Shown: positions 3,410 to 52,042 of the stretch, piece after piece
Layout of the letters: each line of letters begins with the position of its first letter
Position numbering within the stretch: the first letter of the stretch is position 1
Source: Echinarachnius parma
Lineage: Eukaryota > Echinodermata > Echinoidea > Clypeasteroida > Echinarachniidae
Assembly (NCBI GenBank): GCA_037951105.1
Contig: JBAMJV010003031.1
Span: 1 to 64,000 of the forward strand
DNA length: 64,000 nucleotides
Reading direction: 5' to 3'
Notes under the pieces: model-generated
What the model saw: the letters and a program-made list of their open reading frames with translations, nothing else
Databases searched by the model: none
What the model was told of the DNA's origin: nothing
Program-made: the position numbers and the translations under genes

Positions 3410-3424
3410 ATATTGCCAAAGTAG

Positions 3425-13546: not shown

Positions 13547-13804
13547 AGTAAAGTGTGACTGTACTGTTCGATTATTGTGGTTTGAGGCTCTAACGTGGGA
13601 CGCATAAGGCCAACATTGCGAGCATAAATGTATCATTTACTTTAGAACTCTGCTATCAACTAACATGTACTGTACATGTATGAACAGTTTGGGCCTGACT
13701 GCTAAGGCAGGATGTTAAATGTGATTATTCATCTGTTCTGTTTGCTGTCAGCGAAATAACTTGTGTACATGCATGTGAAATGTATTCTGGTACGTCTAAA
13801 TTTA

Positions 13805-16370: not shown

Positions 16371-16670
16371 ATGTTGGATCACTTGGAAGGCATCCCCATC
16401 ATAGACATTGACTTCCACGCAGTGCCGGTCAGGGGTTACCTGTCCGCAAACACCTTGGTAACCAACGGCAACGAGGGCGAGTATAATGCGTACAACGACT
16501 ATGAAAACGTGATTAACATCCAGAGGGTCCAGAGGGCCCAGAGCGTACAGAGGGTTCAAAGGTTATCCTCGGGCAAGAGTCGGACGCGATGCACGTGCAA
16601 TATGAACTCGATGCCGAGGAGTGGCTACCTCGCGGCAAAGATGGTGACGCATACGGAATCCGATGGAACG
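16371..16670 (+). CDS. DENND2: DENND2 coding exon with start codon (residues 1-100)
   Basis: The ATG at 16371 sits in a strong context (TTCCACCATG). Exactly 100 codons follow to a GTATGT donor, phase 0, joining 18468. It encodes an acidic/polar N-terminal segment with no recognised domain. Two internal duplications are visible. One is a short VQR/AQS tripeptide array at residues 51-64, made of 9-base repeats at about 16520-16562. The other is a weaker pair of similar segments, PVRGYLSANTLVT (19-31) and PRSGYLAAKMVT (82-93). Vertebrate DENND2 N-termini are long, disordered and unconserved, so lack of similarity is expected. The start is chosen by Kozak context; no acceptor is convincing just upstream. 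Confidence 0.75.
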
Positions 16671-19600
16671 GTATGTAAATTGGTACTTGGCAGGCATTTT
16701 GTCCTTTAAATACTTGAGCGCTTGAATAAAGCTGCTCGGCCAAAGCCAAGGTAACAATGCTCCGAGTGCTTTAGAGTCTGAACTGTAATACAGCGCTATA
16801 TGTACAAAATTGACAATAATAATAATAATGAATTATTATTATTATTATTATTATTATGAGTGAAGCGCAAATGTTGTCTATGAATTTGCATTCCAATAAC
16901 TATGAATTTCACTTTTAAAGGAATAATATTTGCGTGATCAGTTCGGGAAGTTTTTTTTTCTTTTTTCAATTACATGTCAAAAATATGAATTTGTGCGATA
17001 AATTAGGGCAATATTGTACTTTTTGTTGTTTACAAACACTTATAATGTTTAATATTTTGTTGTTGATTCAGTGTTTGGATTAGTTCATCTTGAGTGGGGG
17101 GTTTTCCCTTTTGTAGTCATTATTACGTAGGTCCCTTCCCTTTCGTTATTTGACTTCTTCGTTAACGCAAGATTGTGCTGAGTGACGAGCTATCATATTA
17201 CCATGGGTGTCAGTACAGATGTATGTCTTTTTGTCTGGGGGACTAGACAATAGGTAACCCTTCAACCCCCTCTTTCCCCCCCCCCCCCCCCCCCCTCCCA
17301 AATGGATTAGTCCTTCAGGCATTGATGACTAGATGCATGTTGAATTTTCTTTCAAGTTCTCAGAGCTTTGCGAGCATTGCATATTTCCATATCCTTATCA
17401 TGTTTACATTTACCATTTATTAAAATGTTCGTATTACATGATACATGTATTTGACTTTCTATCTTGATGTTATTGTATTTGTATGATGTTTGTATTGGTA
17501 TGAAGTATGAACTTGTATATTACTTTTTATTTTATGATTTAAAGCTTTGGAAATCAAATGATTGAAATGAAATGATATGAAATGTTTAAACACTATTTAT
17601 GTGTTCATGTGCTTGTTGACATAACTATATCTTTTAGATTTCTGTATTGTATTATATTGTGTTGTATTTTGTTGTATTGTATTGTATTGTATTATGTTGT
17701 GTTGTATTATAATGTATTGTATTGTATTGTATTATATGTGTGTTGTGTTGTGTTGTATTGTATTGTATTATCCTGTAATATATTGTATTGTATTGAATTG
17801 TATTATATTGTATTGTATTGTATTGTATTGTGTTATGTTGTGTTATATTGATGTGTATTGTATTGCATTGTATTGTTCCTGTACACTGTTGTTATTTGTA
17901 GTGTGTTTAACCCCTTCACCACGTCTACCCCGTTTTCACATATTCAGAGATGGGAGCCGTGTTTCACCGGTTCCGAGGAAAACATATTTCATTTGCTTGA
18001 AAATTACATATTTTGAACTTCTTGTGCCATATAAATGGCTTATGTTGAAGGATTCTACCTTCCTCTATGATATGTCCCTCTAAAAGTGTGTACAAGAATT
18101 ATTATTTTTTGATCTCTACGGATTGCAGAATTGCAGAATCCACAATTGCTGCTCTCTACCCATGTGTGTAAATGGGTACCATGGTCCGGTGTTAATTAGC
18201 CTTAGAAGCGCCATCATCAGTGGCAGCACGGCTTGTATGCTCCCCGGGGAGTTGAGAAAGTATGCAATATCATTGTGTGGGTTTGAAATGTACCTCATGA
18301 CCATGGGTAATAATAATAAAATAAGCGCAGTAGAGTATATATTTGTAGTAGCTGCGCTATATAAATGTTCATATTATTATTATAAGTAAAAGAAGGATCA
18401 AGATTAAAGAATGCTTCATGTGTTGCCTGTTTTATCATGTTGCTCTCTTGCTCTCTTTTATTTGTAGATGCGACGGAAGATCAACGATGCCTTCCGCCGC
18501 AAGCACCACCACCAGAAGACGGAGGAGGACCGGATATCGGTCACCTCGGAAGGAAGTGATTCAGAGGTCAACGATCAAGGTCAGTTTTTATTCTATGTTT
18601 ATTTTGCTATTATTTGCTTTTGAAAAATCACTGCAGAAATTGTTATTCTTATCTTCGAAATGCTTTGTTGCAGTCCTGGTCCCCTATAACATGTTACAGT
18701 TACAGTCAGTGTGACCTCAGGAGGAAGTGATTCAAAGGTCAAGGTTAAGGTCATTCTTTATTTTGTTTTATATATCATATGGTAATTAGTACTAACAGAA
18801 TGTTCTGTATCTTTCCTTTATATGTAATCTTATAATTAAAGTCTATAATTTGTCATGATACAATTTAAATTCTAATAATTTCTCATAGTTTCAAACATGC
18901 ATAGCAAAAAAAAAACAACAACCTTAAAACTAATGTCTTTTACAAAAGTATGATCAATTTCAAGCAAAAAAGTACATGTATGTGTAATAACTTGAGTATC
19001 AGTGTATACTACAAAATCAGTGTCTGTGCCAAAATAAGCTCCATTAATGGGGAGTGCACTTGGTTTTAATTGCCTCAATGTTACTTTCCCATTCTAATTA
19101 CTGGAGTACTAATTGTGTTATCTCCTTATTAAAGTGGACATCCTTTGTTAAATAATTGTGAAAGTGTGCCGTCTTCCTTGTTCTCAGAACAATCAACAGT
19201 TTACAACCAGGAAATCAGGTTTCCCTGTATTATAGTTGCAAGCCTCCACACTAACTCTTTTCTTCACTGGCTCATTTGGGCAAGTGAAATCATAAATTGT
19301 AGGATTTTACTTGCCTGAACTGAAAATTGACTTGCCCGCTCCACTTCTTGATGAGATTTACAATGTACATGAAAGGAAATACATTTTCTTTTAAAGTTGA
19401 CCATTAATTGATTTGCCAGATCGAGTAACCAAACTAAGCCATTTACAAAATTTTACTTGCCCGACATCAATTTTTACTTGTACTCTCCTTACCAGAACTC
19501 AACTATCCCTTTAAGTGATCCATTAACTTCCATCTATGAAAGTGGCTTTAACTCAGAAATCAGAAATCCTATTTTTGGAGTGTAGATGTCATACTGCGTC

Positions 19601-41500: not shown

Positions 41501-41547
<47 letters not shown>

Positions 41548-41554
41548 GTGATGG

Positions 41555-41601
<47 letters not shown>

Positions 41602-41602
41602 C

Positions 41603-41634
<32 letters not shown>

Positions 41635-44600
41635 GGGGATGATGATGATGATGATGATGATGGTGATGTGATGAGGGTGATGGTGATGTTGATGTGATGG
41701 GGGTGATGAGGGTGATGATGATGGTGATGGTGATGCTGATGATGATGGTGATGGTGGTGATGATGATGATGATGATGATGATGATATTTGTGCTGCTTGT
41801 GTTCGATTTCGAGATAACCTTTTTTTGTGGGGAGAGGGGTAGTGTTACTGTTCATTTTTTCTTTACCAATATAAATGATCTGATTGTGTGTTATTCATGT
41901 GGTATATGTTCATAATTTCTGCCATGATATTAAACATTTATTTCATTGGTTCTGTGTTCACACAGGTTGACTTTGATACGCTCTTCAACTGTCTCAGTGC
42001 CACCAGGATCATACAGATCTTTGCTTCATTACTACTAGAAAGGAGGGTCATCATGTGCTCAGGGAAACTAAGGTTAGTGTGAACACCTTGTAGAGTTAGT
42101 CTGCCTAAGTGTGAACAGATTAGTCAAAGAGAGGGAAGTAATAATATCAATTCAATTCAATTTATTTATTTTCCACATTCAATAAAAAGCACATGAACAA
42201 TAATACAGATAATTCAGAGAACAAAGTATATTAAAATGTGATCAGGAAATTAAGTTTAGTGTGGACACCTTATTCACAGCAGATATACAATATAAAATAT
42301 GTTTGCCAAAGTGTGAATGGAATTTAATTCTGATTCAAATCAGTGTGAACAGGATAGAACATATCTTTTCTTCATTCAGATTCAGATTCAGATTCAGATT
42401 CAGTTTATTTGGCAAAATAAAACAATACAAAATCAACAATCAAATTTACATTTATAAATAATAGCCGGGACCTCGGAGAAGCAGCATGTGCTTGTATGTG
42501 AGGGCCCATTACAGAAAATTAAACATTACGACTAAATGATAATAAAAACAAATATATATATACACAAAATTACAAGATTATGTAAAGCAGTGATTTCCTA
42601 GACAGAGGGTAATCATGTGCTCAGGGAAACTAAGGTTAGTGTCAACGAGTTAGTCTGCCTAAGTGTGAACAGATTAGTCAAAGAGAGGGAAGTAATTATA
42701 TGATCAGGAAAATAAGTTTAGTGTGGACAACTTATTCGCAGCGCATATACAATAAGTTGCCAAAGTGTGAATGGAATTTAATTCTGATTCAAATCATTGT
42801 GAACAGGATAGAACATATCTTTGGTTCATTACTACTAGAACGTTACGTTACGTTACGTTGCTGACTCCAAGAAAGATTTCATGTCACGCAAAGGTCAAGC
42901 ATGGAGTGCATGTAATAAATTGCATCATATTTGGCAATCTCACATTTCAAGATCTACAAAAGTTACATTTTTCAGGGCCTGTGTAGAGAGCATCTTACTT
43001 TATGGTTCAGAGACATGGACCATGAAGAAGGCACTACAGGACCGGCTTGATGGGACATATACTGGCAAAAACACATTGATGGAATTGCATCGAAATCCAA
43101 CCAAATGCTCGGGCTTATCAATAGGAATCTACGACGCTCTTCCCAGAAGATCCGACAACAAGCCTTCTTCTCCCTAGTCAGACCTCGCTTGGAATATTGT
43201 GCAACAGTCTGGAATCCATCTACTAAGAAGAGCATCTCAAAGATTGAAGCTGTACAGAGGCGAGCAGCAAGATTCGTTCTTCAACAATACCGCCATTCTG
43301 AGAGTGTGTCTGCCATGATTCAACAACTTCAATGGAGTACACTGGAAAGACGCAGACACATCTCCTGCCTTAGCCTCCTCTACAAAATTCAGAATGGCAT
43401 GGTAGCAATTACACCTGACCAACTCCTCACACCAATGGCCCCAAGCATAACCAGACAATACCACCCAAATAAGCTCAAGCATATACATACTCGAACTCAG
43501 CTTTACCAGAACTCTTACTTCCCACAAACTGTAACAGCATGGAATGCGCTCCCCAATAATATCTTGGCTTCTACATCACTAGGAGCCTTTGCGGGAGCAG
43601 TTGCCTCAATCGGCAATTAATGGGACACCTCACCGGTTCCCCTCGACTCTACGTCCTGACTGATGGACCCTGTCGAGTACCCAAGTAGAAGTAGAAGTAG
43701 AAGTATACTAGGTTTCTCATGAGGGTACAAGATATTAGTTGGAGGGAACACAAAACAAAACCAGAGATCTATGGAAAAATACCACCCATCTCTACCACTG
43801 TTGCTCATCGCCGAATGAGATTCGCTGGTCACTGTTTTAGGGCCAAAGACCAAGTAATCTCGGATGTGATCTACATGACACTCCCATGTCCTAATAGAGG
43901 AAGGAGACCTATGAACTATATGGACTGCATTGCAAGAGACATCCAGTGTGAAACTGGGGACTTGCAGACATTGATAATGGATAAAGATTCATGGCGTTGC
44001 ATTGTGAACTCAGTCTCAGATGCGTCCGCTTAGTAGTAGTAGTAGTAGTAGTAGTAGAGGTAAATAATGTGCTCAGAGAAACTAAGGTTAGTGTAAACAC
44101 CTTGTACATTTTAGCTCATTATCTCAGCTACAACATACTTAATCCTGAACAAGTTTCAAGTAAAAGTGGCCAAGATACGGGCCAAAGAATAATGGAAAAC
44201 ATTAACAAAACTTTAAAAAGTTGGAACTTCCATTCATAAAACATGTGCATGTAAAAAGTATGATTTGATTTTGATTTGCCGTCTTCAGCCAAAATCAAAA
44301 TGAAAAATAAATGTAAATTTTCTTCTAGAGCATAATGTCAGCTACAACATATAGCCAAATAAAGCATTTATAAAGTTCCATGTATCTGGGTGCCCTATTT
44401 ATCATCTCTTCATACTCTTCTATTTTGTATTTCAAACGACAGTAAGCTATCAAGATGTTCTCAGGCCTTAGCGGGACTCCTCTACCCGTTTGCTTGGCAA
44501 CATGTCTACGTCCCGGTCCTGCCAGAGAAGCTGATCGATATGTGCTGCTCCCCGACACCCTACATCATGGGCATGCTGTCACTATGCATACCCAGGCTAG

Positions 44601-47600
44601 AGGAGCTGCCATTGGAAGAGGTGAGTTGAACTGGTTTGATCTGGATTAGAATAGTTTGAAGTGGATCGGAGTTGTTGGTACTAGTTTGGGGTGAATTGAT
44701 AATGATTGACACATGCTGCTCGCCGACACCCTACATCATGGGCATGCTGTCACTATGCATACCCAGGCTAGAGGAGCTGCCATTGGAAGAGGTGAGTTGA
44801 ACTGGTTTGATCTGGATTAGAATAGTTTGAAGTGGATCGGAGTTGTTTGTACTAGTTTGGGGTGAATTGATAATGATTGACACATGCTGCTCGCCGACAC
44901 CCTACATCATGGGCATGCTGTCACTATGCATACCCAGGCTAGAGGAGCTGGCATTGGAAGAGGTGAGTTGAACTGGTTTGATCTGGATTAGAATAGTTTG
45001 AAGTGGATTGGAGTTGTTTGTACTAGTTTGGGGTGAATTTTTAATGATTGACATGTGCTGCTCGCCGACACCCTACATCATGGGCATGCTGTCACTATGC
45101 ATACCCAGGCTAGAGGAGTTGCCATTGGAAGAGGTGAGTTGAACTGGTTTGATCTGGATTAGAATAGTTTGAAGTGGATTGGAGTTGTTTGTACTAGTTT
45201 GGGGTGAATTTTTAATGATTGACATGTGCTGCTCACTGACACCCTACATCATATGGGCATGCTGTCACTATGCATACCCAGGCTAGAGGAGTTGCCATTG
45301 GAAGAGGTGAGTTGAACTGGTTTGATCTGGATTAGAATAGTTTGAAGTGGATTGGAGTTGTTTGTACTAGTTTGGGGTGAATTTTTAATGATTGACATGT
45401 GCTGCTCACTGACACCCTACATCATATGGGCATGCTGTCACTATGCATACCCAGGCTAGAGGAGCTGCCATTGGAAGAGGTGAGTTGAACTGGTTTGATC
45501 TGGATTAGAATAGTTTGAAGTGGATCGGAGTTGTTTGTACTAGTTTGTGGTGAATTGATAATGATTGATATGTGCTGCTCGCCGACACCCTACATCATGG
45601 GCATGCTGTCACTATGCATACCCAGGCTAGAGGAGTTGCCATTGGAAGAGGTGAGTTGAACTGGTTTGATCTGGATTAGAATAGTTTGAAGTGGATTGGA
45701 GTTGTTTGTACTAGTTTGGAGTGAATTTTTAATGATTGACATGTGCTGCTCGCCGACACCCTACATCATGGGCATGCTGTCACTATGCATACCCAGGCTA
45801 GAGGAGTTGCCTCTAGAAGAAGTGAGTAGAACTGGTTTAAATCAGCATTAGAGTGGTTTAAAGTGGTCTAGAGTTGCAGAAACTGGTTTTGGGTGAATTT
45901 ACAGATTTCTGCCTTTTTCAATCTCAGCTAGTCGTCAACCTTGATGTGAGAGAATTCAACAAAGCTGTCAGCGTTTTTATTCCACAGCGCTATAGCTTGT
46001 ATAATAGAGAGTGATCAATGTCACAGTATTTATAAAGAGAAAATTTATTTAAAAGTGTAACTGAATAAATTATTGCTTCTTTATTATCAGGTCCTGGTCG
46101 TTGACCTCGATGCGAGGGACTTCTACACGGTGATCGGCGATGAGGAGACGATTCTTCCCAAGAAGCTCTCAGCGGCGTTAGAAAGGGCGCTCAAGGTCTG
46201 CAGTATGAGCAGCTGGGAAGGGGCGGACACTGATGATGAACTATCAGAAGGTAATAGTTATAATAATAGTAATAGACCAGTATTCATATTGCGCCACCAA
46301 TCTAGAAATTCTATTCCGAGGCACATTGTACTGTACAGTATAGAATTACCCTGGCTGTAGCCGAGCTGTCTTGCAGGCGCATCATACTGTACAGTATATT
46401 ATTACCCTGGCTGTAGCCGAGCTGCATTGCAGGTGCATCAAGCATTTCAAGGAATAAATTCATGCCAGGTACCAATTTACTACACCTGGGTTGAAAGTAG
46501 CAAGTGTGGATAAAGTGTAGAACACACGGGCCGCGGTACCCACTATTCAGATAACTAATTTGTGATGTGGCAAGATTGGCAGCGCACCCGCTTTACAATC
46601 AGTGGGACCCCATTAACAACAAACAATCAGGGAGCGTACTTGGAGTGTGAGTATGTTTGTAGCAATTGATCCATATAAGTCCATTTCTGTTTGTATATCA
46701 GACTGTTCACAATAATAGCGCTCCTCTTCACAAAAGTATACTATACACCCTATGCCTACAATATTTTGCTTTTCCCATAGAGTCGATACATGGTACACCA
46801 AATTCAGGTAGTGAATGGATAAATCTCAATTCAGTATCTGTTTTTGTCACTGCTTATATTGTCAATCACTCTGGAATTCTTGTATCTTATCAACAGACCA
46901 CATCACCATATCTAAAAGTTTCATGCGTTTCTACATTGAGACGGTTATCCACTTCATGCGGCAGTACAGCAAGTTACAGAAGTTATCATTTGTATTTCAA
47001 TATCTGATCTAAACATCATGAACTCTTCTCTTCACCTTCACTCAGACCACGAAGCAAAGAACAGCGCGATCTCGGAAGCATTCATCCGCAACTCTGTTGA
47101 GACGGTCGGCCACTATCTGTACCACTTCATGCAGCAGTACGATGAATCGCAGAAGTTGTCATTTGTATTTAAATATCTGAAAACTACATGTACCTGTTGC
47201 TAATGTATCCATTTTGTCTCTTCCTCACACAGACCACGAATCAAAGAACAGCGCCATCTCGGAAGCGTTCATCCGCTTCTTCGTCGAGACGGTCGGTCAC
47301 TACTCGAACCACTTCACCCAGCAGTACGACGGATCGCAGAAGTTCGACCGCGACGGATTCGTCAAGGCGCATTCTTCGAAGAGCACGCGGACGTTCCTGG
47401 AGGTGTTCAGCGAGACGCAGATGTTCTCGCTGTTCATCCAGGAGAAGGAAGCGGAGAGTGAAGGCATCTCTCAAGGTAAAGGAATCATTCAAACATCATT
47501 ATGCGTGGGTAATAATAATCATGTAATAATGTTTTAATTTATATAGCGCCTAATACGATTGATAATCATCTCTAAGCGCTTTACAATGATATAATTACCC

Positions 47601-50600
47601 TGGTCATCAGACTCACACCCACAATCAACCTGCACATGACGTGCACTTCCTACTCCCTTGGGAGCAATGCATTCTGGTAGCCACATGGCGCACTCAACGG
47701 TATACAAGTACAATTGCATACACGTCCCACTCCTACCGGGTCCCCATTTATACACCTGGGTAGAGAGCAGCAATAGTGGATTAATTGTCTTGCTGAAGGA
47801 CATTGCGATGAGCATACACAGGGTTCTTGATCTCTTGATTGGAAAGCGTGCGCTGTAACAATCTTGCCACACCACGTCCACATATGATTCACCACGGGTC
47901 ACCACTTTGGACTAGGCTAGGTTGTGCGCACTGCATAACACTGAGCCAGTGTGTATTACGCAACAGGTGCAAGGTGTTTGCAAGATGGCGCAGCGCATCT
48001 GATTTACGAATCCGAACTACCTTTTAATTTCTTAATTTATAAACGGTATGAACAAATATTTTAAACATACGATATCAAATATGTGCAATTTCTCGTTGGA
48101 ATAAAGTTTATTTTCAGTAAAATTTAATTTGAAAAATAAAACTGTTTTCACAATACATTTGAGTGAAATAGTATATTTTTAAAAAGATTTTTTCCTTGAA
48201 AATACTACCTTCCGTGAAAAATATTACCATGTTTGAATGCGCTATTCAGCAGTCAGACACAGTACAACTTCTAAAGATATTGGAAAAAGTAACAAATAAA
48301 AAGCTGATTGTGTAAAAATTATATTTTATTAGTTATACAAACTAAAGTTGTCTTATACCAAAGCTGATTTATCTTTTAATGGATAAGTTTGTTTATTTTC
48401 TTTTTAATTCATGTCTTTACAGGCCTGTTTGAGAGGAGAGTCAAGGAGTACGAAAACGAGACGAAAAGCAACTCGAAAAACATCAGTGCCAAAATGAAGA
48501 AGATCGGAAAGGCAGTGAAGGAAATCAAAGAGTCCGGTAAGATTACACCCCTCTGCCACCCCGACCCCCTCAAAGCCTACCCCCCCCCCCCCCCCCCCCC
48601 CCCCAGGTCAAGGCTTCTGATAAATTGGCTCTAACACAGTTACAGTATGTGTTCTTTTGTATAAGGGGGTATCATTTAAAGGGCTGCACCTGTTTTATTC
48701 CCATACTGGTTCCTTGTATACCTGTGACAAGGACTGTTTAGGTAGTTTTGCAGAGAAATTTTGGTTGGCATCACCATGACAACCGATGACATCACTAACA
48801 TCAGAACTAAATGTACACAAAAGTAAGAATTACACCCCTCTCCCACCACCCTGCCACCCGCACCACCCCCCCCCCCCCCCCAATAAGGCCCACCCCCACC
48901 TCTGCTCAAGGCTAATTATAAATTTGCTCTTTTCACAAATGGGCAATTCCACGAAAAAGTGGACATGAACTAAAAAAAACAATTGGCTCTATTTCAAATC
49001 CTATTGATTTTTTCTGGATTATTTTTCCATACAACATGATCCTATGATTATATCTTTCAGTTCACATGATTTTTTTTATTCTCGGGTGTCTCCTTATAGG
49101 AGAAACGGAAACCATACATGAAACTCCACACATGGGACTACCCTGTGCAAATGTTCTGAAACTTTTTTTGCATACTTAACCAGGCTATTGCTTTGTAATC
49201 AAAATAAAAGTTAGACATTAGGTAGAGGTATGAATTAGTAGTGACATTGGAAAGTCATGAAAATACTGTCTGTTTGTAATGTCCGTGATGCTGGAGTTGC
49301 CCAAATACAGTACATGGTCTTTGTATAAAGGGGTAACATTGTCCGAATCCACAAATTAACCTAGAACTCTAGTGGTTATCTCATACCTTGTTGTATTCAT
49401 ATTACCAATAGAAACATGGAACACGCTTCAATTTGTAGAATTTCCCTTTCCTTACGAAGTCAGTGCAACGAGTTAGCAAATATCACTTTGCGTTGTAACT
49501 CATTACTTGGCCATATAATATCCATTTAAAGTGATATTTTCACACATTACTCAGTGGACACATCAGATCACAACAATACACATTTTATTATTACCAATTA
49601 TCACTTTTCGCTCATGTCAACAAAGTTACTAGATCCCTTTAAAAGGCTGCACCCGTTTTATTCCCACACCGGTTCCCTGTATACATGTTCCGGATGTGAC
49701 AAGAACGTTACTGTTTAGGTGGTTTTGCGGGGAAATTTCTGTTGGCATCACCATGACGATCGATGACGTCGCTAACCCCAGAACACAATACATAATAAAG
49801 TGTCTGCAAGTCTTTTGAGACCGTGGGGATAGTGTTGGTATATATTTCTGGACGGCTGACTCACCGAGGGTGCCCCAAAAGTATTTACAGAGACTTGGCA
49901 AACCATCAAACCCAAATCCTGAATGTATTAACTCTTAAACGTGCCAGGGATTTTAATGCTCTATGGCATTTGTGTTTATTGTAACTCGCAAAAATGCGAA
50001 CTTGGCACGTTAGGAGTTAAAACTAAAGTGATTTTTTTGTAAAATGGTTGTTAGAGTTCATTTCCTCGCGTCTTCAATACTATTTGAAGAGTTTTTATTG
50101 TGGAAGACATTTGTTGATAATGATAAACCACAAATGACACATAATGGCTGGAATTCACAAAGGAGTTTCATGTAAACCATGGTTTAAAGGGATCTAGTAA
50201 CATTGTCCAAATCCACAAATCTTACTTCAAACTCTAGCAATACCTTATTGTATTTGTATTACTAATATAAGCATGAAACAGTTTTCGGTTTCCAAATTTC
50301 TCTTTTTTTATTAAGATATCTATGATTGATGTGTTTCGATTCATAATTATCTACAGGAGAATTGAAACTGTGTATAAAGTCAGTGCAATGAGTTAGCAAA
50401 TATCACTTTGCATTTTTGCTAATTTCTTGGTCATATGTCATTCCTTTACCAGATAAATGGTGATGAGTTTACAAATTACATAATTTGTCTTGAAACCTAT
50501 TTTCCTGAACTTGTTGGTGGAATGGACTACTAAAGCTATTCTTTCTTTTATAAGAATATTATTTTGGGGTGTCGGTTCCCTTTAAATTGTCTACATTTTC

Positions 50601-50952
50601 CCAAAAAGGGGTGCCTCCAGGGCCCTGTTGCAGAAAGAGATACAATCGATTGTAAGTTACGATTGATCGTAAGTCAGAAAATGTACGTGTTTCAACTAAT
50701 CAGTTTTGCGCATCTAGAGCACATGATCTGATTTACTTACGATTAATCGCAACTTACAATCGATTGTATCTCTTTCTGCAACGGGGCCCGAGTCACAAAT
50801 ACAATCACCATGATGTGATCACATTTCTAGTCCATGCGTCTTATATTTTCTCCTTTTTATTATTTTGTATTTTCTCAGCAGGTTTCAAACTGGCTGAATC
50901 TGCCAAGGGGGTACAGAAGCGCGTGAAGCAGAACCTGGACGATAAGATATGA
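16371..50952 (+). CDS. DENND2: DENN domain-containing protein 2-like Rab GEF (12 exons, whole coding span)
   Basis: Coding exons: 16371-16670, 18468-18579, 35819-36003, 37422-37583, 39257-39427, 41236-41352, 41966-42072, 44443-44620, 46091-46250, 47233-47475, 48423-48536, 50882-50952. All junctions are GT/AG, all phases match, and the sum is 1920 nt (639 residues plus stop). The uDENN part is about residues 168-253 (KLYEYAVIVS, AIPQFCFPDA), the core DENN about 254-444 (FASLLLERRVI, LLYPFAWQHVYVPVLP, LEELPLEEV) and dDENN about 445-600 (DEETILPKKL, AFIRFFVETVGHY, FLEVFSETQMF, GLFERRVKEY). These match the vertebrate DENND2A-D family from recall. Family members are exchange factors for Rab9 or Rab13 in membrane traffic; the substrate here is inferred only. 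Human members have about 470-1140 residues, so this is a compact form. The N-terminal 137 residues are not recognisable. One gene for the whole family is expected in an invertebrate, so A/B/C/D cannot be assigned. Confidence 0.93.
16671..17639. other. intron 1 of the coding gene, first part; no other gene seen
   Basis: It contains an (ATT)n run at 16828-16857 and a poly-C run at about 17276-17295. Otherwise unremarkable A/T-rich sequence. Confidence 0.55.
17640..17876. repeat. (TATTG)n pentanucleotide microsatellite
   Basis: About 47 imperfect pentamers of TATTG/TGTTG/TATTA. The ORFs through it are products of the repeat. Confidence 0.9.
18110..18386 (+). repeat. SINE, near-complete, (ATT)n tail
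   Basis: The body has CTCTACCCATGTGTGTAAAT, GGGTACCATGGTCCGGTGTT and a 3' end AGCGCAGTAGAGTATATATT then TAGCTGCGCTATATAAATG and (ATT)n. It ends 80 bases before the next exon's acceptor. Confidence 0.65.
18468..18579 (+). CDS. DENND2: DENND2 coding exon (residues 101-137)
   Basis: The acceptor TTTGTAG precedes 18468 and a GTCAGT donor follows 18579. The exon reads MRRKINDAFRRK, then a His/Gln run and an acidic/Ser patch (SEGSDSEVND), ending with one base of a split valine codon completed by 35819. It is basic at first and then acidic, typical of the linker before the uDENN part. The next intron is 17.2 kb. A decayed copy of its 3' half with donor lies 171 bp downstream. Confidence 0.8.
18708..18768 (+). 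pseudogene. echo of DENND2 exon 3 (3' half plus donor)
   Basis: GTGACCTCAGGAGGAAGTGA, then TTCAAAGGTCAAGGTTAAGG TC, repeats the end of exon 18468-18579 (GTCACCTCGGAAGGAAGTGA...) at a 171 bp step and carries into the intron ('TTTATTTTG'). No acceptor; not expected to be spliced. Confidence 0.8.
19240..19480. repeat. third copy of the 'aagcctccacactaac' dispersed repeat
   Basis: It has the left end GCAAGCCTCCACACTAACTC and the ACTTGCCCGACATCAATTTT word; the right end is missing. A solo MITE family C end (GAACTCAACTATCCCTTTAA) follows directly. Confidence 0.6.
19725..20098. mobile_element. MITE family B copy
   Basis: It starts TTAAAGCAATCCATCAACTT and carries 'GAGACTTCCATGTACCAAAATCATTG' and 'AAAGTACAAGAGAAATCTGG'. 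It ends near GACAAAGTTAAGAGATAATA. Confidence 0.65.
20520..20845. mobile_element. MITE family B copy
   Basis: It starts TTAAAATGATCCATCAACTT and has 'TGATATTTGAGACTT', 'GTGTGATAGTTTCATAGAAA' and 'GTTACCATAAGACAAACAAC'. Confidence 0.65.
21024..21285. mobile_element. inverted-repeat element with poly-G tract
   Basis: The left end AGTGGTGTAGCCAGGAATT mirrors the right end CCTTGCTACTCCACTACT. A G run of more than 20 lies at about 21221-21245. The end motif resembles the GCGTAGCTAGG ends at 60084 and 61240. Confidence 0.6.
21563..21720. mobile_element. foldback MITE, 'CCCCGTTGCAGAAAG' family (158 bp)
   Basis: Near-perfect arms of about 50 bases: left CCCCGTTGCAGAAAG and right CTTTCTGCAACGGGG, continuing inward through ATACAATCAATTGTAAGTTA. 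Sister copies: 50620-50789 and 39881-40023. A related element is at 25960-26177. Confidence 0.85.
22079..22260. mobile_element. MITE family B fragment
   Basis: It has 'TTCATTAACTTTGTCGAATT', 'GTACCTTGATGTTTGGCTTA' and 'TGGTCACAAAAGAGAATGAA'. The other end is lost. Confidence 0.55.
22675..22840. mobile_element. MITE family B fragment
   Basis: It starts TTAAAGTGATCCATTAACTT, then 'AATATTTGAGACTTCAATCA' and 'ATACCAATGTCATTG'. Confidence 0.55.
22841..24336. other. no gene seen
   Basis: Intron sequence with no supported ORF. Short direct repeats 'CTCCCCCAAACTC' occur near 23025. Confidence 0.5.
24337..24640. mobile_element. MITE family B copy (about 300 bp)
   Basis: 'AAGTGATCCATTAACTTTGT' at the left and the complement of the family words ('GATTGAAGTCTCAAATATCA') at the right, so both ends can be recognised. 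Confidence 0.7.
24659..25420. mobile_element. inverted-repeat element carrying GTCACGTGTGTGAC boxes (762 bp)
   Basis: The left end GGGCCATTCTT mirrors the right end AAGAATGGCCC. The 14-base box GTCACGTGTGTGAC lies at 24671, 24851 and 25059, with a one-base variant at 25084. No coding capacity is seen. Confidence 0.7.
25421..25959. other. no gene seen
   Basis: A/T-rich intron. A degenerate duplicate of about 25690-25800 occurs at about 26680-26780 ('TTTCAACACTCTGGTGTCCA' and 'GTGTATGCTCTGAC' words). Confidence 0.5.
25960..26177. mobile_element. foldback MITE, 'GGGGGGTGTTGCATAAAG' family
   Basis: The left end GGGGGGTGTTGCATAAAGAG mirrors the right end CTCTTTATGCAACACCCCCC. The arms continue through 'TTGCGATTAATTGCAA'. 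The middle holds GGTACCCC/GGGGTACC-like palindromes. Confidence 0.85.
26407..26602. mobile_element. TTAA-flanked MITE, family C (196 bp)
   Basis: The left end TTAAAGGGATAGTTGAGTTC mirrors the right end AAAACTCAACTATCTCTTTAA. A longer relative is at 57234-57770, and a solo end at about 19495-19515. Confidence 0.85.
26603..27393. other. no gene seen
   Basis: A/T-rich intron sequence; no supported feature besides the short duplicate noted for 25690. Confidence 0.45.
27394..27680. mobile_element. MITE family A copy, right end eroded
   Basis: TTAAAGGGATTTAGTAACTT at the left. 'ACACAGTTATAACTTTCCAG' and 'TCAATCGTAAATATCTTTT' follow in the family order. Confidence 0.6.
27681..29985. other. no gene seen; microsatellite near the end
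   Basis: Very A/T-rich intron. An (AAAC)n run lies at about 29755-29828. No ORF with coding character. Confidence 0.55.
29986..30900. repeat. purine tract of about 900 bases with tandem units and poly-G
   Basis: The plus strand is almost all A/G from about 30000 to 30900, with a G run at about 30099-30117. Three diverged units carry 'AATGAAAT.GATATCGCCA' and 'GATGACAGGAAAACAT' (about 30030, 30247, 30429). Two further units carry 'GAGAAAGAGAAGAAGCAAGA' (30533, 30681). The long minus-strand ORFs here are Ser/Phe-rich translations of this tract. Confidence 0.8.
30995..31306. mobile_element. inverted-repeat MITE, 'GGGGGTGTTTCACA' family (312 bp)
   Basis: The left end GGGGGGTGTTTCACACAGAT mirrors the right end ATCTTTGTGAAACACCCCC. 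The arms continue with CCTAAGTTGAACTTAACTCT. A solo right half is at 38474-38549. Confidence 0.85.
31307..32953. other. no gene seen
   Basis: Intron sequence with two weak direct repeats ('AAAGACCATTCGG' / 'AAAGACCGTTCGG' near 31812 and 31882; 'GACCTTTATAGACACTT'). No exon recognised. Confidence 0.5.
32954..33131. repeat. 148-bp tandem duplication holding a short inverted-repeat element
   Basis: GTATTGTAGTTCAAGC.GCAA occurs at about 32957 and 33103. Between them is a CpG-bearing foldback: TACTGTAACG at the left, CGTTTACAGTA at the right, with ATTTTCGCG/CGCGAAAAT inside. Confidence 0.6.
33583..33690. mobile_element. MITE family A, left end only
   Basis: It starts TTAAAAGGGATCTAGTAACT, then 'TTGTTGACATGTGCAAAAAC' and 'GGTTGATAAAATGTGTA'. 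Confidence 0.6.
34075..35175. mobile_element. dispersed element starting 'agctcatccggcccgaagggcc', with internal tandem units
   Basis: The left has GCTCATCCGGCCCGAAGGGC then CCGATGAGC, itself a hairpin. A (TCCG)n run follows at 34123-34190. Then come units with 'CTTCTTCTCCTTCATTTCTC', 'GACCGATTTTGATT' and 'TTTATGCAAATTTATT' at about 34200, 34340, 34500 and 34650. 34770-35030 is extremely A/T-rich, with a TTAA run. The right end GCCGGATGAGC (35153-35163) pairs with the left GCTCATCCGGC, giving terminal inverted repeats. Confidence 0.75.
35485..35562 (+). pseudogene. echo 1 of DENND2 exon 4 (no acceptor)
   Basis: TCTTCGGTGTACTGCACAGA through 'CAGTACTCTAAACTCTGCGA' and 'TATGCCATCGTATCGCTGTAG' matches the middle of exon 35819-36003. 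It has lost its 5' half and acceptor, and its frame ends in TAG. Confidence 0.85.
35624..35712 (+). pseudogene. echo 2 of DENND2 exon 4 (acceptor kept, in-frame TAA)
   Basis: The acceptor TTTCCCTGCAG is followed by TTAAGAGGAAGCGTCTTACA, then 'CGCCATGAGGCTCCGGTCTT' and 'TATGCAGTACTAA'. The frame is that of the real exon until a TAA replaces the TCC codon. Spacing to the real exon is 196 bp, and to echo 1 is 181 bp. If spliced in, it would end the protein before the DENN domain. Confidence 0.85.
35819..36003 (+). CDS. DENND2: DENND2 coding exon, start of uDENN (residues 138-199)
   Basis: The acceptor CTCCCTGCAG precedes 35819; the donor GTAGGA follows 36003. It encodes VKRKRLTYVRAM and then KLYEYAVIVSLQMDEETRRY and RRFPHE. 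The YEYAVIVSL strand matches the opening beta strand of uDENN in DENND2 (human FEYFVVVSL), and RRFP matches the QFP position. It is phase 1 at the start and phase 0 at the end. Two broken copies of this exon lie just upstream, at spacings of 196 and 181 bp. Confidence 0.92.
36336..36395 (-). repeat. tRNA-related SINE remnant
   Basis: Minus-strand relative of 2018-2092: 'CCAAGACCTCTTGATTGCTAG' and 'ACGGTGCTTGCTCTTAGCAG' in plus-strand reading. The B-box is nearer to consensus (GAATCGATCCC), while the A-box is broken. Confidence 0.5.
36786..36995. repeat. (ATT)n and (TTAGTA)n microsatellite
   Basis: Runs of TAT, GAT/TAT mixtures and nine or so copies of TAGTAT. The hydrophobic ORFs here are repeat translations. 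Confidence 0.9.
37422..37583 (+). CDS. DENND2: DENND2 coding exon, uDENN second half (residues 200-253)
   Basis: The acceptor TACACAG precedes 37422; the donor GTAAGT follows 37583. It encodes LRAIPQFCFPDAFKWAPV, SESFTFVLTSSDGSRLYGYN and RRIL. AIPQFCFPDA and SFTFVLTxxDGSRxxGYxRR are hallmarks of DENND2 proteins and give the clearest family assignment. Phase 0 at both ends. A degenerate copy of the last 60 bases lies 159 bp downstream. Confidence 0.95.
37672..37760 (+). pseudogene. echo of DENND2 exon 5 (3' third plus intron)
   Basis: TTTGTACTAACCAGCTCTGA then 'GGCTCATGGTTCTATGGTTA' and 'CAACGGAAGGATACCTTAG' repeats exon 37422-37583 at a 159 bp step. The following intron words (ACCCTGTGGATA versus ACCCTGTAGATA) are repeated too. 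The donor GTAAGT is changed to TTAGCA. Confidence 0.85.
37761..38689. other. intron 5; no other gene seen
   Basis: It contains the solo MITE end at 38474-38549 and a short tandem duplication at about 38130-38300 ('AGAGCATTCT.TATGTGATGCAA' twice). Confidence 0.5.
38474..38549. mobile_element. right half of the 'GGGGGTGTTTCACA' MITE
   Basis: 'AATGGCTTTCCATAATAGTAA', 'TTAGAGTTAAGTTCAACTTA' and 'GATCTTTGTGAAACACCCCC' match the end of 30995-31306. Confidence 0.7.
38690..39180 (+). pseudogene. three echoes of DENND2 exon 6 in tandem (187-191 bp steps)
   Basis: Copies start at about 38700 (acceptor lost), 38879 and 39066 (acceptor TTTCTTTAG kept in both). Each repeats CCTCCTGGCCGAGGCCC then 'AGAGGT.GTGTG.GTGATG' and 'GCTACCCAATCTACAACCAA'. 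The second copy stays open for over 40 codons, then runs into intron sequence. The third has a two-base insertion after the MSP codons, giving TAG. None has the exon's 3' half or a donor at the right place. Confidence 0.9.
39257..39427 (+). CDS. DENND2: DENND2 coding exon, start of core DENN (residues 254-310)
   Basis: The acceptor TCCATTAG precedes 39257; the donor GTAAGC follows 39427. It encodes PPGKGPRLPEVVCVMSPIGC, YNQLLDEVENRRK and CPFPRP. GKGPRLPEVYCV, GC and LDEVExRR are conserved across DENND2 proteins. Phase 0 at both ends. Three truncated copies of its first half lie upstream at about 190 bp steps. Confidence 0.95.
39785..39840 (+). repeat. tRNA-related fragment
   Basis: It has 'TTAGCTCAATTAATCTGCGAG' and a B-box-like GGTTCAACTCCCAG, but no complete cloverleaf. 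Read as a SINE or tRNA pseudogene piece. Confidence 0.45.
39881..40023. mobile_element. foldback MITE, 'CCCCGTTGCAGAAAG' family, diverged
   Basis: GGCCCCGTTGCAGAAAGAGA at the left, 'GCATCTCTTTTCGCCATGGG' at the right, and the shared 'AACCAATCAGAT' and 'ACATGATCTGA' middle. Confidence 0.75.
41236..41352 (+). CDS. DENND2: DENND2 coding exon, core DENN linker (residues 311-349)
   Basis: The acceptor CTTTTCAG precedes 41236; the donor GTGAGT follows 41352, directly against a (GAT)n array. It encodes GSHTKVVTPPTSRRKN, then FLQRPQDQRLEH. The end, RP.D.RLEH joined to VDFDTLF of the next exon, matches the invariant DENND2 RLEHVDF. The start aligns with the human GKT.KV. strand. The segment between is longer than in vertebrates, a basic loop insertion. 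No echo of this exon was found. Confidence 0.88.
41355..41783. repeat. (GAT)n trinucleotide array
   Basis: About 430 bases of GAT/GGT/GAG triplets beginning right at the donor of exon 41236-41352. ORFs in all frames (poly-Met, poly-Asp, poly-His, poly-Ile) are products of the repeat. Confidence 0.95.
41966..42072 (+). CDS. DENND2: DENND2 coding exon, core DENN helix (residues 350-384)
   Basis: The acceptor TTCACACAG precedes 41966; the donor GTTAGT follows 42072. It encodes VDFDTLFNCLSATR and IFASLLLERRVIMCSGKL. FASLLLERRVI is the most conserved stretch of the core DENN domain. It ends with two bases of a serine codon finished at 44443. The following intron carries broken copies of the exon's 3' end plus nested retrotransposons. 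Confidence 0.95.
42146..42235 (-). mobile_element. LINE 3' end fragment, minus strand
   Basis: (CAATT)n followed by 'ATTTATTTATTTTCCACATT' and an A-rich stretch: the mirror of a non-LTR 3' end with a short-repeat tail. It interrupts the duplicated exon-8 flank. Confidence 0.5.
42240..42365 (+). pseudogene. decayed echo of DENND2 exon 8 donor region
   Basis: 'GATCAGGAAATTAAGTTTAG' then 'TGTGGACACCTTATT' repeats the exon end and donor (CTCAGGGAAACTAAGGTTAG TGTGAACACCTTGT), 182 bases after the real one. A further related copy is at about 42700. Confidence 0.6.
42375..42596 (-). mobile_element. LINE 3' end fragment with (CTGAAT)n tail, minus strand
   Basis: Five copies of ATTCAG at 42375-42404, then TTTATTTGGCAAAATAAAAC and 'TAATAGCCGGGACCTCGGAG'. 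Read on the minus strand this is a non-LTR 3' UTR ending in a hexanucleotide tail. Confidence 0.6.
42597..42840 (+). pseudogene. exon-8 echo and intron duplicate, cut off by a retrotransposon
   Basis: 'AATCATGTGCTCAGGGAAAC', 'TAAGGTTAGTGT' and 'GTTAGTCTGCCTAAGTGTGA' repeat the end of exon 41966-42072 and its intron. The block ends with 'ATCTTTGGTTCATTACTACT AGAA', a copy of the exon middle, exactly where the retrotransposon begins. Confidence 0.8.
42841..44056 (+). mobile_element. non-LTR retrotransposon 3' fragment (host of a nested insertion)
   Basis: 42841-43063 encodes 'FRACVESILLYGSETWTMKK' and 'LDGTYT'. 43710-44036 continues 'RFLMRVQDISWREH', 'YGKIPPISTTVAHRRMRFAG' and 'HCFRAKD', ending in (TAG)n at 44033-44056. 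YGSETW...L..RLDG.YTR and ISW.(D/E)H.....YG.IPP.S are typical of the C-terminal part of non-LTR reverse transcriptases. It is 5'-truncated and split at 43063/43710 by another element. Confidence 0.85.
43064..43703 (+). mobile_element. second non-LTR retrotransposon, nested, 5'-truncated
   Basis: The ORF at 43105-43620 (171 codons) contains 'FFSLVRPRLEYCATVWNPST', 'IEAVQRRAARFVLQQYR', 'LQWSTLERRRHISCLSLLYK' and 'WNALPNNIL', the usual C-terminus of Jockey/CR1-like reverse transcriptases. It ends in (GTAGAA)n at 43684-43703. TATACT at 43058-43063 and again at 43704-43709 is a six-base target duplication. Removing the insert rejoins the host frame (GTYT/RFLMRV). Confidence 0.9.
44057..44115 (+). 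pseudogene. other half of the split exon-8 echo
   Basis: 'AATAATGTGCTCAGAGAAAC', 'TAAGGTTAGTGTAAACACCT' and 'TGTA' continue the exon-8 copy interrupted at 42840, so the retrotransposon landed inside a duplicated exon. Confidence 0.8.
44443..44620 (+). CDS. DENND2: DENND2 coding exon, core DENN end (residues 385-444)
   Basis: The acceptor AAACGACAG precedes 44443; the donor GTGAGT follows 44620. It encodes KLSRCSQALAGLLYPFAWQH, VYVPVLPEKLIDMCCSPTPY and PRLEELPLEE. LLYPF.WQH.YIPVLP and CSPTP are strict DENND2 signatures. The 3' half of the exon plus the donor and following intron is the first unit of an eight-copy tandem array (see 44541-45910). Only this first copy has the 5' half and an acceptor. 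Confidence 0.95.
44541..45910. repeat. eight-unit tandem array made of exon 9's 3' half plus intron
   Basis: The word GACACCCTACATCAT occurs at 44554, 44725, 44896, 45067, 45238, 45411, 45584 and 45755: steps 171,171,171,171,173,173,171. Each unit has about 78 exon bases, an intact GTGAGT donor and about 90 intron bases. Units are over 95% alike except the last. The first unit is the real exon; the rest lack an acceptor. The frame does not read through: TGA follows each donor. Confidence 0.95.
45926..45980 (+). pseudogene. echo of DENND2 exon 10 (acceptor kept)
   Basis: The acceptor AATCTCAG is followed by CTAGTCGTCAACCTTGATGT and 'GAGAGAATTCAACAAAGC', matching the start of exon 46091-46250 (CTGGTCGTTGACCTCGATGC...) at a 166 bp step. 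It decays after about 45 bases. Confidence 0.8.
46091..46250 (+). CDS. DENND2: DENND2 coding exon, start of dDENN (residues 445-497)
   Basis: The acceptor TATTATCAG precedes 46091; the donor GTAATA follows 46250. It encodes VLVVDLDARDFYTVIGDEET, ILPKKLSAALERALKVC and an acidic tail. VLVVDL and DEExxLPxKLxxALE match DENND2. It ends with one base of an Asp codon completed at 47233. A decayed copy of its start with acceptor lies 166 bp upstream. Confidence 0.94.
46251..46914. other. intron 10; SINE fragments only
   Basis: A 45-base direct repeat ('TACTGTACAGTATA', 'TTACCCTGGCTGTAGCCGAG') occurs at about 46328 and 46385. SINE-like 'CACCTGGGTTGAAAGTAGCA' lies near 46485. No exon. Confidence 0.5.
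46915..47007 (+). pseudogene. echo 1 of DENND2 exon 11
   Basis: 'TCATGCGTTTCTACATTGAG', 'ACGGTTATCCACTTCATGCG' and 'GCAGTACAGCAAG' match 47080-47150, with a 15-base deletion and no acceptor. The trailing 'TTATCATTTGTATTTCAATA' matches the tail of echo 2. Confidence 0.8.
47046..47203 (+). pseudogene. echo 2 of DENND2 exon 11: open frame, intact acceptor, own stop
   Basis: The acceptor CTTCACTCAG precedes 47046. The frame, phase as in the real exon, reads DHEAKNSAISEAFIR, NSVETVGHYLYHFM and QQYDESQKLSFV, then leaves homology and stops at TAA (47201-47203). No internal stop occurs. Compared with 47233-47475 it has both silent and changed codons (FF to NS). It could serve as an alternative last exon giving a protein cut inside dDENN, or be a decayed copy; I cannot tell. 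Confidence 0.75.
47233..47475 (+). CDS. DENND2: DENND2 coding exon, dDENN core (residues 498-578)
   Basis: The acceptor CTCACACAG precedes 47233; the donor GTAAAG follows 47475. It encodes SEAFIRFFVETVGHY, SSKSTRTFLEVFSETQMF and LFIQEKEAE. FIRFFVE.VGHY and RRFLEVFxETQMF are conserved in all DENND2 proteins. This is the longest conserved exon. Two truncated copies lie upstream (46915-47007 and 47046-47203), the nearer one with an open frame and intact acceptor. Confidence 0.95.
47505..47880 (-). repeat. SINE, minus strand
   Basis: Plus-strand reading: TTTATATAGCGCCTAATACG, 'CTCTAAGCGCTTTACAATGA', 'TACACCTGGGTAGAGAGCAG', 'TTGTCTTGCTGAAGGACATT' and a tRNA-like end near 47870. The order matches tRNA-derived SINEs common in marine invertebrates, in reverse orientation. 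Confidence 0.7.
47881..48422. other. intron 11, rest; no other gene seen
   Basis: A/T-rich; nothing supported. Confidence 0.55.
48423..48536 (+). CDS. DENND2: DENND2 coding exon, dDENN C-terminal end (residues 579-616)
   Basis: The acceptor CTTTACAG precedes 48423; the donor GTAAGA follows 48536. It encodes GLFERRVKEYENE and then a lysine-rich stretch ISAKMKKIGKAVKEIKES. GLFExRVxEY is the DENND2 signature after the GEF core. The basic helix resembles the 'LGNKMKFLHKK' tail of vertebrate members. The final glycine/alanine codon is split with the last exon. Confidence 0.92.
48942..49302. mobile_element. inverted-repeat element, GGGCAATTCCA ends
   Basis: The left GGGCAATTCCACG mirrors the right CTGGAGTTGCCC, about 360 bp. 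The ends resemble GGGCCATTCTT (24659) and GGGCTATTCCACGG (61876). Confidence 0.55.
49328..49643. mobile_element. MITE family A, inverted copy
   Basis: 'AAAGGGGTAACATTGTCCGA' at the left, 'GTTACTAGATCCCTTTAA' at the right, and the complement of the family middle between them. Confidence 0.75.
49929..50021. mobile_element. short TTAA foldback element (about 92 bp)
   Basis: The left TTAACTCTTAAACGTGCCAG mirrors the right TTGGCACGTTAGGAGTTAA. A related end is at 52132. Confidence 0.75.
50184..50450. mobile_element. MITE family A, inverted, one end lost
   Basis: TTAAAGGGATCTAGTAACAT then TGTCCAAATCCACAAATCTT. The middle matches 49400-49560. Confidence 0.65.
50620..50789. mobile_element. foldback MITE, 'CCCCGTTGCAGAAAG' family
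   Basis: GGGCCCTGTTGCAGAAAGAG at the left, 'CTCTTTCTGCAACGGGGCCC' at the right, with long arms through TACAATCGATTGTAAGTTAC. It ends only 90 bases before the terminal exon. Confidence 0.85.
50882..50952 (+). CDS. DENND2: DENND2 terminal coding exon with stop; tandem NAG acceptor
   Basis: It encodes FKLAESAKGVQKRVKQNLDD, KI and stop TGA at 50950-50952. The acceptor reads TCTCAGCAG, so splicing can use the AG at 50877-50878 or 50880-50881. The first adds three bases: Ala-Gly instead of Gly at residue 617, giving a 640-residue isoform. Both keep the frame. The last 42 bases and the adjoining 3' sequence are repeated five more times downstream. Confidence 0.85.
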
Positions 50953-51053
50953 CACCCATCATGCTGCAACCGGAAGCACACGTTAACGTTAACATAGGAC
51001 GCTGTGTGATCGGGAGTCATCAACATCTATAACGAGAGGAGGTGTATATCTTC

Positions 51054-51830
51054 CTAGGTGGTTCTGAAGCGCATTGAACAGAACCTAGATGACAAGATAT
51101 GACACACACCATGCCGCAACCGGAGGCACGCCCCCCTGCCCCTATTCGTGGAGTGGTAAAGGGCTGTAAGATGCTGTGTGATCGAGAATCGTCTACGTGT
51201 GTATAGAGAGAGGTCTGGAATATTTCAAGGTAGCTCTGAAGCATATGAAACAAGACCTAGGAGTCAGGATATGATGCATACCATGATACAACCAGAGGCA
51301 CACCAAGTCCCCACACCTATCCCTAGGGTGGGTAGAGGGCTGTAAGATGCTATGTGATCAAGAATCATCTACGTGTGTAAGGAGAGAGGTCTGGAATATG
51401 TCAAGGTAGTTTTGAAGAGTATGAAAGGAGACCTGGGTGATAAGATATGACGCACACCATGATACAAGCAAGGACAGACCTGAGCAGTCAGTCCCAGACC
51501 CAGACCATCGTTCTATATTGTTTGGGGATGGGGCTGGAGGACGCTGTGAGATTGAGAGTCATCTATAAGGGGAGGTGGTGTATGTCTACCAAGGTAGTTA
51601 TGAAGTGAATGAAAGATATAACAAACACACACCATGTTGCTACCAGAGGCTCAACTAAGGCAGAGGCAGTCCCTGCCCCTAACCCAGCAGTGGGTAGGAG
51701 TTCTTGTGTGACATTCATCTACAACAAGAGGTGTCTTTAATCAGCCAAGGTATGAAGCGAGGCCTGGATGACAAATATGACGCACACTATGCCGCAAGCC
51801 AGGCCCGGCCTGAACAGTCGGTCTCAGACC
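51054..51830 (+). pseudogene. five echoes of the DENND2 terminal exon and 3' UTR
   Basis: Copies of 'TGAAGCGCAT.GAACAGAACC' and 'GATGACAAGATATGA' start at about 51061, 51235, 51411, 51597 and 51750, against 50911 in the real exon: steps 150, 174, 176, 186, 153. Each is followed by 'CACACCATG..GCAACC.GAGGC' and 'CTGT.AGATGCTGTGTGATC.AGA'. The first copy keeps the coding frame and the stop; later ones decay. They lie in the 3' UTR if transcribed. Confidence 0.9.
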
Positions 51831-52042
51831 CCGTTCCATATGGTGTAGGGATGGGGGCTGTATGACGCATGTTCCTATCTCTAGGGGGAAAAAGAACGGA
51901 AGCCACACGGTTGCTTGGGTGTAACTGACTTGTCAAGGATCGGAGGAAGATCAAATGAAGTTGAAAAGGAAACGAGCAGGGAGAACATCAAGTGGGGCAT
52001 GAAACAGTGTTGCACAACTCATCCCGTCAGCATTTATGTTAA
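51831..52042. other. putative 3' UTR; no feature
   Basis: No ORF, no repeat recognised. Confidence 0.4.

Follow-up and report, generated by a model that had tools for sequence, protein, structure and literature searches.

Partial local copies of coding exons in a DENND2-type gene of the echinoid Echinarachnius parma

We analysed 64,000 nucleotides of the genome of the echinoid Echinarachnius parma (assembly GCA_037951105.1, contig JBAMJV010003031.1, positions 1 to 64,000 of the forward strand), hereafter the window, in which a DENND2-type gene is encoded on the + strand. An earlier reading of the letters alone had proposed that almost every coding exon of this gene has decayed local copies of itself, which span a splice site and run into the adjoining intron. 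Self-blast, controlled per-exon searches and alignments judged against shuffled sequences agreed that these exon echoes are real, and clear local direct copies were found for 8 of the 12 exons (3, 4, 5, 6, 8, 9, 11 and 13). Every echo found was partial and included at most one exon end.

The DENND2-type gene

The gene has 12 coding exons, numbered 2 to 13 as in the sequence-only reading, whose joined open reading frame (ORF) encodes 639 amino acids, and all 11 introns are of the GT...AG type. Pfam identified uDENN, DENN and dDENN domains in the product, and its nearest relatives, proteins of Diadema and Lytechinus that are named DENND2, showed 87% identity at 84% query coverage. The gene is thus probably of the DENND2 type, an assignment based on the three DENN-family domains in one protein and the names of the relatives rather than on a tree. 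Over residues 101-639, 471 of 539 positions were identical in Diadema antillarum and 469 of 539 in Lytechinus variegatus, and these two proteins shared 480 of 539 with each other; the gene appears to be about equally distant from both orthologues. Exon 2, which encodes the first 100 residues, had no counterpart in the Diadema and Lytechinus proteins in tblastn searches, its support being the ORF and the donor site. It is perhaps an alternative first coding exon, and leaving it out changes the denominator of the exon counts from 12 to 11. The coding exons are as follows.

16371..16670, + strand: coding exon 2 (ORF and donor; no echo found)
18468..18579, + strand: coding exon 3 (gene model; tblastn, 92-95% identity to Diadema/Lytechinus)
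35819..36003, + strand: coding exon 4 (gene model; tblastn)
37422..37583, + strand: coding exon 5 (gene model; tblastn)
39257..39427, + strand: coding exon 6 (gene model; tblastn)
41236..41352, + strand: coding exon 7 (gene model; tblastn; no echo found)
41966..42072, + strand: coding exon 8 (gene model; tblastn)
44443..44620, + strand: coding exon 9, DENN domain (gene model; Pfam; tblastn)
46091..46250, + strand: coding exon 10 (gene model; tblastn)
47233..47475, + strand: coding exon 11, dDENN (gene model; Pfam; tblastn)
48423..48536, + strand: coding exon 12 (gene model; its sole local copy is of intron only)
50882..50952, + strand: coding exon 13 with the stop codon (gene model; tblastn)

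A GAT-type trinucleotide array of 426 bp (41360-41785) starts about 7 bases past the donor of exon 7.

Local copies of the exons

Each exon with 120 bp on either side was compared by blast with the surrounding sequence (3.5 kb on either side) and with 30 distant-region controls per exon, and matches overlapping the exon by fewer than 10 bp were discarded. Directed exon-echo alignments were scored against 200 shuffles. The local scans were run with simple repeats (4157 bases) masked, the directed alignments on unmasked sequence. In the per-exon blast, seven of the 12 exons (4, 5, 6, 8, 9, 11 and 13) had a copy that outscored all 30 controls. The copy of exon 3 scored 93 in this search, below the control maximum of 120 (control median 90); it was recovered by self-blast of the window (63 bp at 81%, E=3e-7) and by directed alignment (score 228, shuffle maximum 153). 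The copy of exon 10 was missed by the per-exon blast, and directed alignment gave a score of 154 against a shuffle maximum of 130, and 128 at stiffer gap costs (a score taken without shuffles); this echo is probable only. Weak second copies were also aligned for exon 8 (8b, 159 against a shuffle maximum of 130), exon 11 (11b, 158 against 147) and exon 13 (13d, 137 against 115). Exons 2 and 7 had no copy scoring above their 30 distant-region controls in the blast of the surrounding 3.5 kb. Exon 12 was rejected as a case of exon copying: its copy at 48823-48930 begins exactly at the donor GT and contains no exon sequence.

The list of exons given by the sequence-only reading therefore stands for 3, 4, 5, 6, 8, 9, 11 and 13, is weak for exon 10 and reduces to intron for exon 12, and its nine or ten exons out of twelve become eight clear ones and the weak exon 10, which is a small correction. 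That the copies number from one to seven was borne out by exon 9, which has seven extra units, and that they diverge widely by identities of 99% to 65% in their intron parts. The units of exon 9 are 95% alike, and in two of them 2 bp are inserted in the exon part. In tblastn searches, the Diadema, Lytechinus and Patiria proteins all matched the echoes of exons 4, 6, 9 and 11; the exon 8 echo was matched weakly (E 0.16 and 0.11), by the Diadema and Lytechinus proteins only. The copies are located as follows.

18711..18824, + strand: exon 3 echo (3' part and donor side), downstream, unit 171 bp (self-blast, directed alignment)
35557..35751, + strand: echo 4a (acceptor and 5' part of exon 4), upstream, offset 196 (blast, alignment, tblastn)
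35388..35563, + strand: echo 4b, older, upstream of 4a, offset 181 (blast, alignment, tblastn)
37661..37826, + strand: exon 5 echo (3' part and donor side), downstream, unit 160 (blast, alignment)
38615..39187, + strand: three exon 6 echoes (acceptor side and 5' part), upstream, units 187-191 (blast, alignment, tblastn)
42236..42842, + strand: exon 8 echoes, downstream, set apart by intervening sequence (blast, alignment)
42591-42703, + strand: exon 8 echo piece (3' part and donor side)
42236-42273, + strand: exon 8 echo piece
42772-42842, + strand: exon 8 echo piece, weak, exon sequence only
44041..44114, + strand: another exon 8 echo with the donor side (blast, alignment)
44703..45899, + strand: seven tandem units of exon 9, 171-173 bp (3' half, donor and intron; self-comparison, tblastn)
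45878..45975, + strand: probable weak exon 10 echo (acceptor side and 5' part), upstream, offset 163-166 (directed alignment)
47001..47157, + strand: echo 11a (acceptor side and 5' part), upstream, offset 187 (blast, alignment, tblastn)
46889..46984, + strand: echo 11b, older, weak, aligning over exon sequence only, 168 from 11a (alignment; weak tblastn)
48823..48930, + strand: copy of the first part of intron 12, beginning at the donor GT, C-rich, no exon sequence (self-blast, alignment)
51041..51872, + strand: exon 13 array of about five decayed units of 150-178 bp (coding end and 3' flank), downstream, the last two weak (blast, alignment)

The sequence between the exon 8 echoes at 42850-44040 contains a 189-amino-acid open frame that looks retroelement-like by eye but was not matched by Pfam at E 0.01. 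A 56-bp tandem duplication (91%; 46329-46440), shorter than the exon units, lies in the intron that follows exon 10.

Geometry and unit length

The echo lay on the side expected of a tandem duplication in 9 of 9 exons, exon 10 included, and always in direct orientation. As had been read from the sequence, echoes lie upstream of some exons and downstream of others: those of the donor side of exons 3, 5, 8 and 9 and of the 3' side of exon 13 are downstream, while those of the acceptor side of exons 4, 6, 10 and 11 are upstream. The copies abut at six exons (4, 5, 6, 9, 11 and 13) and, in directed alignments, nearly abut at exons 3 and 10. This combination of side, orientation and abutment fits adjacent tandem duplication and disfavours a copy-and-paste capture. 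No complete exon with both splice sites was found among the blast and directed alignments. Among 26 local inverted pairs, most of which are palindromes, none touched an exon, which disfavours inverted or dispersed capture. Palindromic elements, which resemble short inverted-repeat transposons, lie at 21562-21721, 50620-50789, 39877-40023, 30996-31305 and 63094-63246, and the first two are 84% alike.

The offsets from exon to nearest echo were 171, 196, 160, 190, 182, 171, 166, 187 and 150 bp for exons 3, 4, 5, 6, 8, 9, 10, 11 and 13, respectively, the value for exon 8 being taken from a 38-bp match. The units of abutting loci away from exons ranged from 94 to 259 bp (one unit for each locus, mostly the shortest; the value of 175 comes from the abutting-pair scan instead of directed alignment, and 152 is the midpoint of 146-158). 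Judged by the shortest unit, 9 of 9 exons and 2 of 12 non-exon loci fell within 150-196 bp (Fisher P=0.0002, Levene P=0.011), a range and a contrast that were picked after the data had been seen.

Decay of the echoes

Twenty exon-echo pairs, several of which share one exon and are therefore not independent, were compared with the Diadema and Lytechinus proteins. Where exon and echo differed, the orthologues agreed with the exon at 105 residues and with the echo at 9, and 10 were undecided. Six in-frame stops were found in 5 of the 20 pairs. In addition, of the 17 pairs that contain both an exon and an intron part, 14 were more similar in the former than in the latter, the exceptions being two copies of exon 8 and the nearest unit of exon 9. 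These findings illustrate that the echoes decay while the exons are held, and coding selection is apparently not kept on the copies.

Local duplications throughout the window

Local duplications are abundant in the window. We counted 31 local duplication loci in the 64 kb, 24 of which had no contact with an exon; these 24 include dispersed repeats and matches at 54-55% identity, the removal of which would raise the exon excess. At a score of at least 130, 74 local direct pairs lay within 2 kb (several per array), and a control with chunks 20 kb distant yielded 4 non-overlapping loci. At a score of at least 150, there were 61 pairs within 4 kb and 11 at 8-12 kb, a comparison in which dispersed repeats soften the contrast. 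Dispersed repeats are thus disfavoured as the source of the echoes. One dispersed family occurs in both orientations at 3194-3410, 13278-13547, 27547-27671, 49333-49643 and 50183-50437. A non-exon tandem array at 34119-34774 consists of a CGTC microsatellite followed by a minisatellite with units of 146/158 bp (304-bp dimer, 92% matches).

Random non-exon segments of exon length, chosen more than 150 bp from an exon and with no more than 20% masked, had a local copy in 28-39% of cases inside the gene (n=600) and 28-41% outside it (n=500), at scores of at least 200 and at least 130, respectively. By the same criterion, 7 of 12 exons had a local copy, and at a score of at least 300 the figures were 6 of 12 exons and 19% of random segments. 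This comparison understates the exon excess because a random segment may be the source or the copy, whereas an exon can only be the source. A Pfam search of 15 of the 134 listed ORFs revealed no second gene usable as a control.

The sequence-only reading had held that the echoes exceed what scattered duplication should give unless exon DNA is specially prone to it, or such duplications abound everywhere and can be recognised only at exons. Their being common everywhere was confirmed by the 24 loci of 31 without an exon. Since these were recognised away from exons, the claim that duplications are only recognisable at exons is wrong, and the gain in recognition, though real, was a modest 1.4-fold: in a planted-duplication test with known ages in real sequence (score 150, 60 trials per age), events spanning an exon stayed detectable 1.4 times longer (integrals 0.264 and 0.189), because the functional copy is conserved. 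An abstract simulation gave an advantage of 1.1-1.6. Exons were also over-represented base by base: a local copy at 80% identity or more was found for 24% of exon bases and, away from exons, for 6.5% of bases outside the echo clusters (9.8% including them). As for exon DNA being specially prone, an exon excess does remain, yet a residual preference is unproven.

Origin of the echoes

Very probably, the echoes are the product of small tandem duplications with one breakpoint in an exon, followed by one-sided decay, and belong to an ordinary process that acts across the whole window. Small tandem duplications with units of about 150-196 bp would recur in this echinoid genome, and where the breakpoints fall in an exon and the adjoining intron (the 3' flank for the last exon) they would leave an intact exon beside a fragment that retains some of the exon together with a spare splice site. 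Position would fix which copy stays intact, the upstream one if the donor side is duplicated and the downstream one if the acceptor side is. Purifying selection would then preserve the intact copy while the fragment decays as intron, and some units (exons 6, 9 and 13) may have been amplified further. The echoes are presumably not spliced in, the duplication process is apparently ongoing, and part of the exon excess probably stems from the slower loss of events in which one copy is selected. We concluded that ordinary duplication with retention accounts for the form of the pattern and much of its frequency, and that a residual preference for exons is possible but unproven.

Several results weigh against so uniform an account. 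After the 1.4-fold correction, 7 of the 31 loci touched exons where 2.3 were expected (P=0.007), as did 6 of 18 abutting loci where 1.3 were expected (P=0.0014) and, at the same correction, 5 of 16 loci at least 80% alike (exons 5, 6, 8, 9 and 11; P=0.005). Even when any offset within 150-196 bp was accepted, only 4 of 12 non-exon loci qualified against 9 of 9 exons (Fisher P=0.005), and a uniform process does not predict this contrast. The echoes of exon 8 do not abut it; sequence intervenes, and the main echo is 554-563 bp away. The lack of duplications containing a whole exon or lying within one is not significant: among random 174-bp placements that touch an exon, 83.5% span exactly one boundary, so the lack of whole-exon events is not itself evidence of selection. 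Finally, differences at third codon positions (137 of 503) were twice as frequent as at first and second positions (138 of 1007). By our reasoning, a bias of this size is close to the most that fully neutral echoes could show, and it leaves some doubt about the absence of coding selection.

The excess and the unit lengths could be read to mean that exon-containing DNA is a true hot spot of tandem duplication in this lineage, with the unit length set by chromatin, near that of a nucleosome or a lagging-strand fragment. We regard this as unlikely, and give the same low weight to the more specific form in which exons are preferred for tandem duplication of about nucleosome length (150-196 bp) and exon chromatin or transcription-linked replication stress sets both place and size. 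One nucleosome carries about 170 bp of DNA. In favour of a hot spot, the excess persists after the measured detection bias, an exon is touched by each of the 6 abutting loci that score at least 150 between 35.3 and 52 kb (at R=1.4, P is about 1e-4), and units of 150-196 bp characterise 9 of 9 exons against 2 of 12 or 4 of 12 non-exon loci. However, this is a single gene, picked because it looked striking, so that the P values are nominal, and both the size range and the sub-region were chosen post hoc. If unequal deletion were to add a twofold bias (2.8 in total), P would rise to 0.13 for all loci, 0.03 for abutting loci and 0.06 for the class at least 80% alike. Loss matters less in that class, in which identity was taken over the entire matched piece, so that exon conservation favours exon events there. 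Moreover, the breakpoints keep no constant phase, the exon parts ranging from 36 to 129 bp in the alignments, and GC-rich sequence is not preferred: GC-richness was rejected as a cause because 12 non-exon sources had a mean GC of 0.32 against 0.37 for the window, that is, they were AT-richer. Depending on the test and the bias assumed, exon-touching loci were 1.6- to 4.5-fold more numerous than expected. Duplications seem more frequent at exons than easier recognition alone explains, and much of the remaining excess could be taken up by unequal deletion. The contrast in unit length between exons and other loci is a lead.

The other explanations carry still less weight. Proximal capture during break repair, in which a copy is pasted nearby instead of being duplicated in place, would suit the detached echoes of exon 8, and human repair duplications average 162 bp and include 4 of 824 donors with partial exon/intron sequence (PMC2671141); such capture allows either side and either orientation, whereas here 9 of 9 exons have direct echoes on the tandem side and six abut, and we consider it very unlikely. 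It is scarcely credible that the echoes serve as alternative exons, for example mutually exclusive ones, or as functional decoy splice sites. The exon 9 units do keep GTGAGT donors, the exon 6 echoes keep AG acceptors and the third-position bias points the same way, but no echo found has more than one splice site, stops occur in 5 of 20 pairs, decay is one-sided, two exon 9 units are frame-shifted, and reading past the exon 9 donor meets an in-frame TGA. Equally improbable is an assembly artefact in which haplotypes were joined in tandem. The 95% match among the exon 9 units would be possible for divergent haplotypes; exons 8 and 9 apart, the echoes are too old for this because their intron parts are 65-84% alike and their decay is one-sided.

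Under small tandem duplication with one-sided decay, partial duplicates at conserved exons provide a built-in clock, in which a selected copy can be set against a neutrally decaying one. Should the rest of the genome show a similar density, intron sequence close to exons in echinoids would reveal how often short tandem duplications arise over long times, what size spectrum they have and how they are lost, and would allow exons to be tested as mutational hot spots; if it is limited to DENND2, the gene is an instructive outlier. Were exons truly hot spots, most exons of a gene would be accompanied by partial copies that form a dated series. False partial exons should be expected in gene prediction and probe design for genomes of this kind.

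Comparison with known systems

A literature search, resting mostly on titles and the openings of abstracts, found no account of such echoes in sea urchins. The kind of duplicate is already known, and its density here is unusual. In the text available from one study, "inter-boundary" and "intronic" exon matches, degenerate exons included, are recognised classes that occur in more genes than full-exon duplications do (PMC12343006). As far as the accessible text goes, the echoes resemble tandem exon duplications and degenerate intronic copies (Exonize; Ivanov and Pervouchine 2022) in that exon sequence is copied within its own gene, and differ from tandem exon duplication of the Exonize type in that a copy of a whole exon was not found in the DENND2 locus and the density is far higher. 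Exonic nucleotides with a homologue in the same gene at 80% identity or more amount to about 2% in human, against 0.08% in fly and 0.06% in worm (PMC9013439). In the DENND2-type gene, 24% of exon bases had a local copy at this threshold by uniform blast and 35% by directed alignments (base counts entered by hand), a rough yardstick in which another method and one picked gene are set against genome averages such as the human figure of about 2%.

Breaks and replication slippage likewise give rise to small tandem duplications whose copies are adjacent, direct and short, but the DENND2 units exceed them in length (150-196 bp at exons) and have in some cases been amplified. The repair-mediated proximal duplications surveyed in human by Pace et al. 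(2009, PMC2671141) are described as local, with a mean of 162 bp, a few of them copying partial exon/intron sequence, and copies within 50 bp of each other were excluded there as tandem. Unlike those duplications (up to 5 kb apart and non-tandem), the DENND2 copies are for the most part adjacent to the exon, direct and placed on its tandem side; only the echoes of exon 8 would suit that class. Satellite units are reported to be "either of nucleosomal length or 5-10 bp long" (PMC8122249); the echoes are like the nucleosome-length satellites in the length of their units, and unlike them in forming short arrays at unique exons and no satellite blocks.

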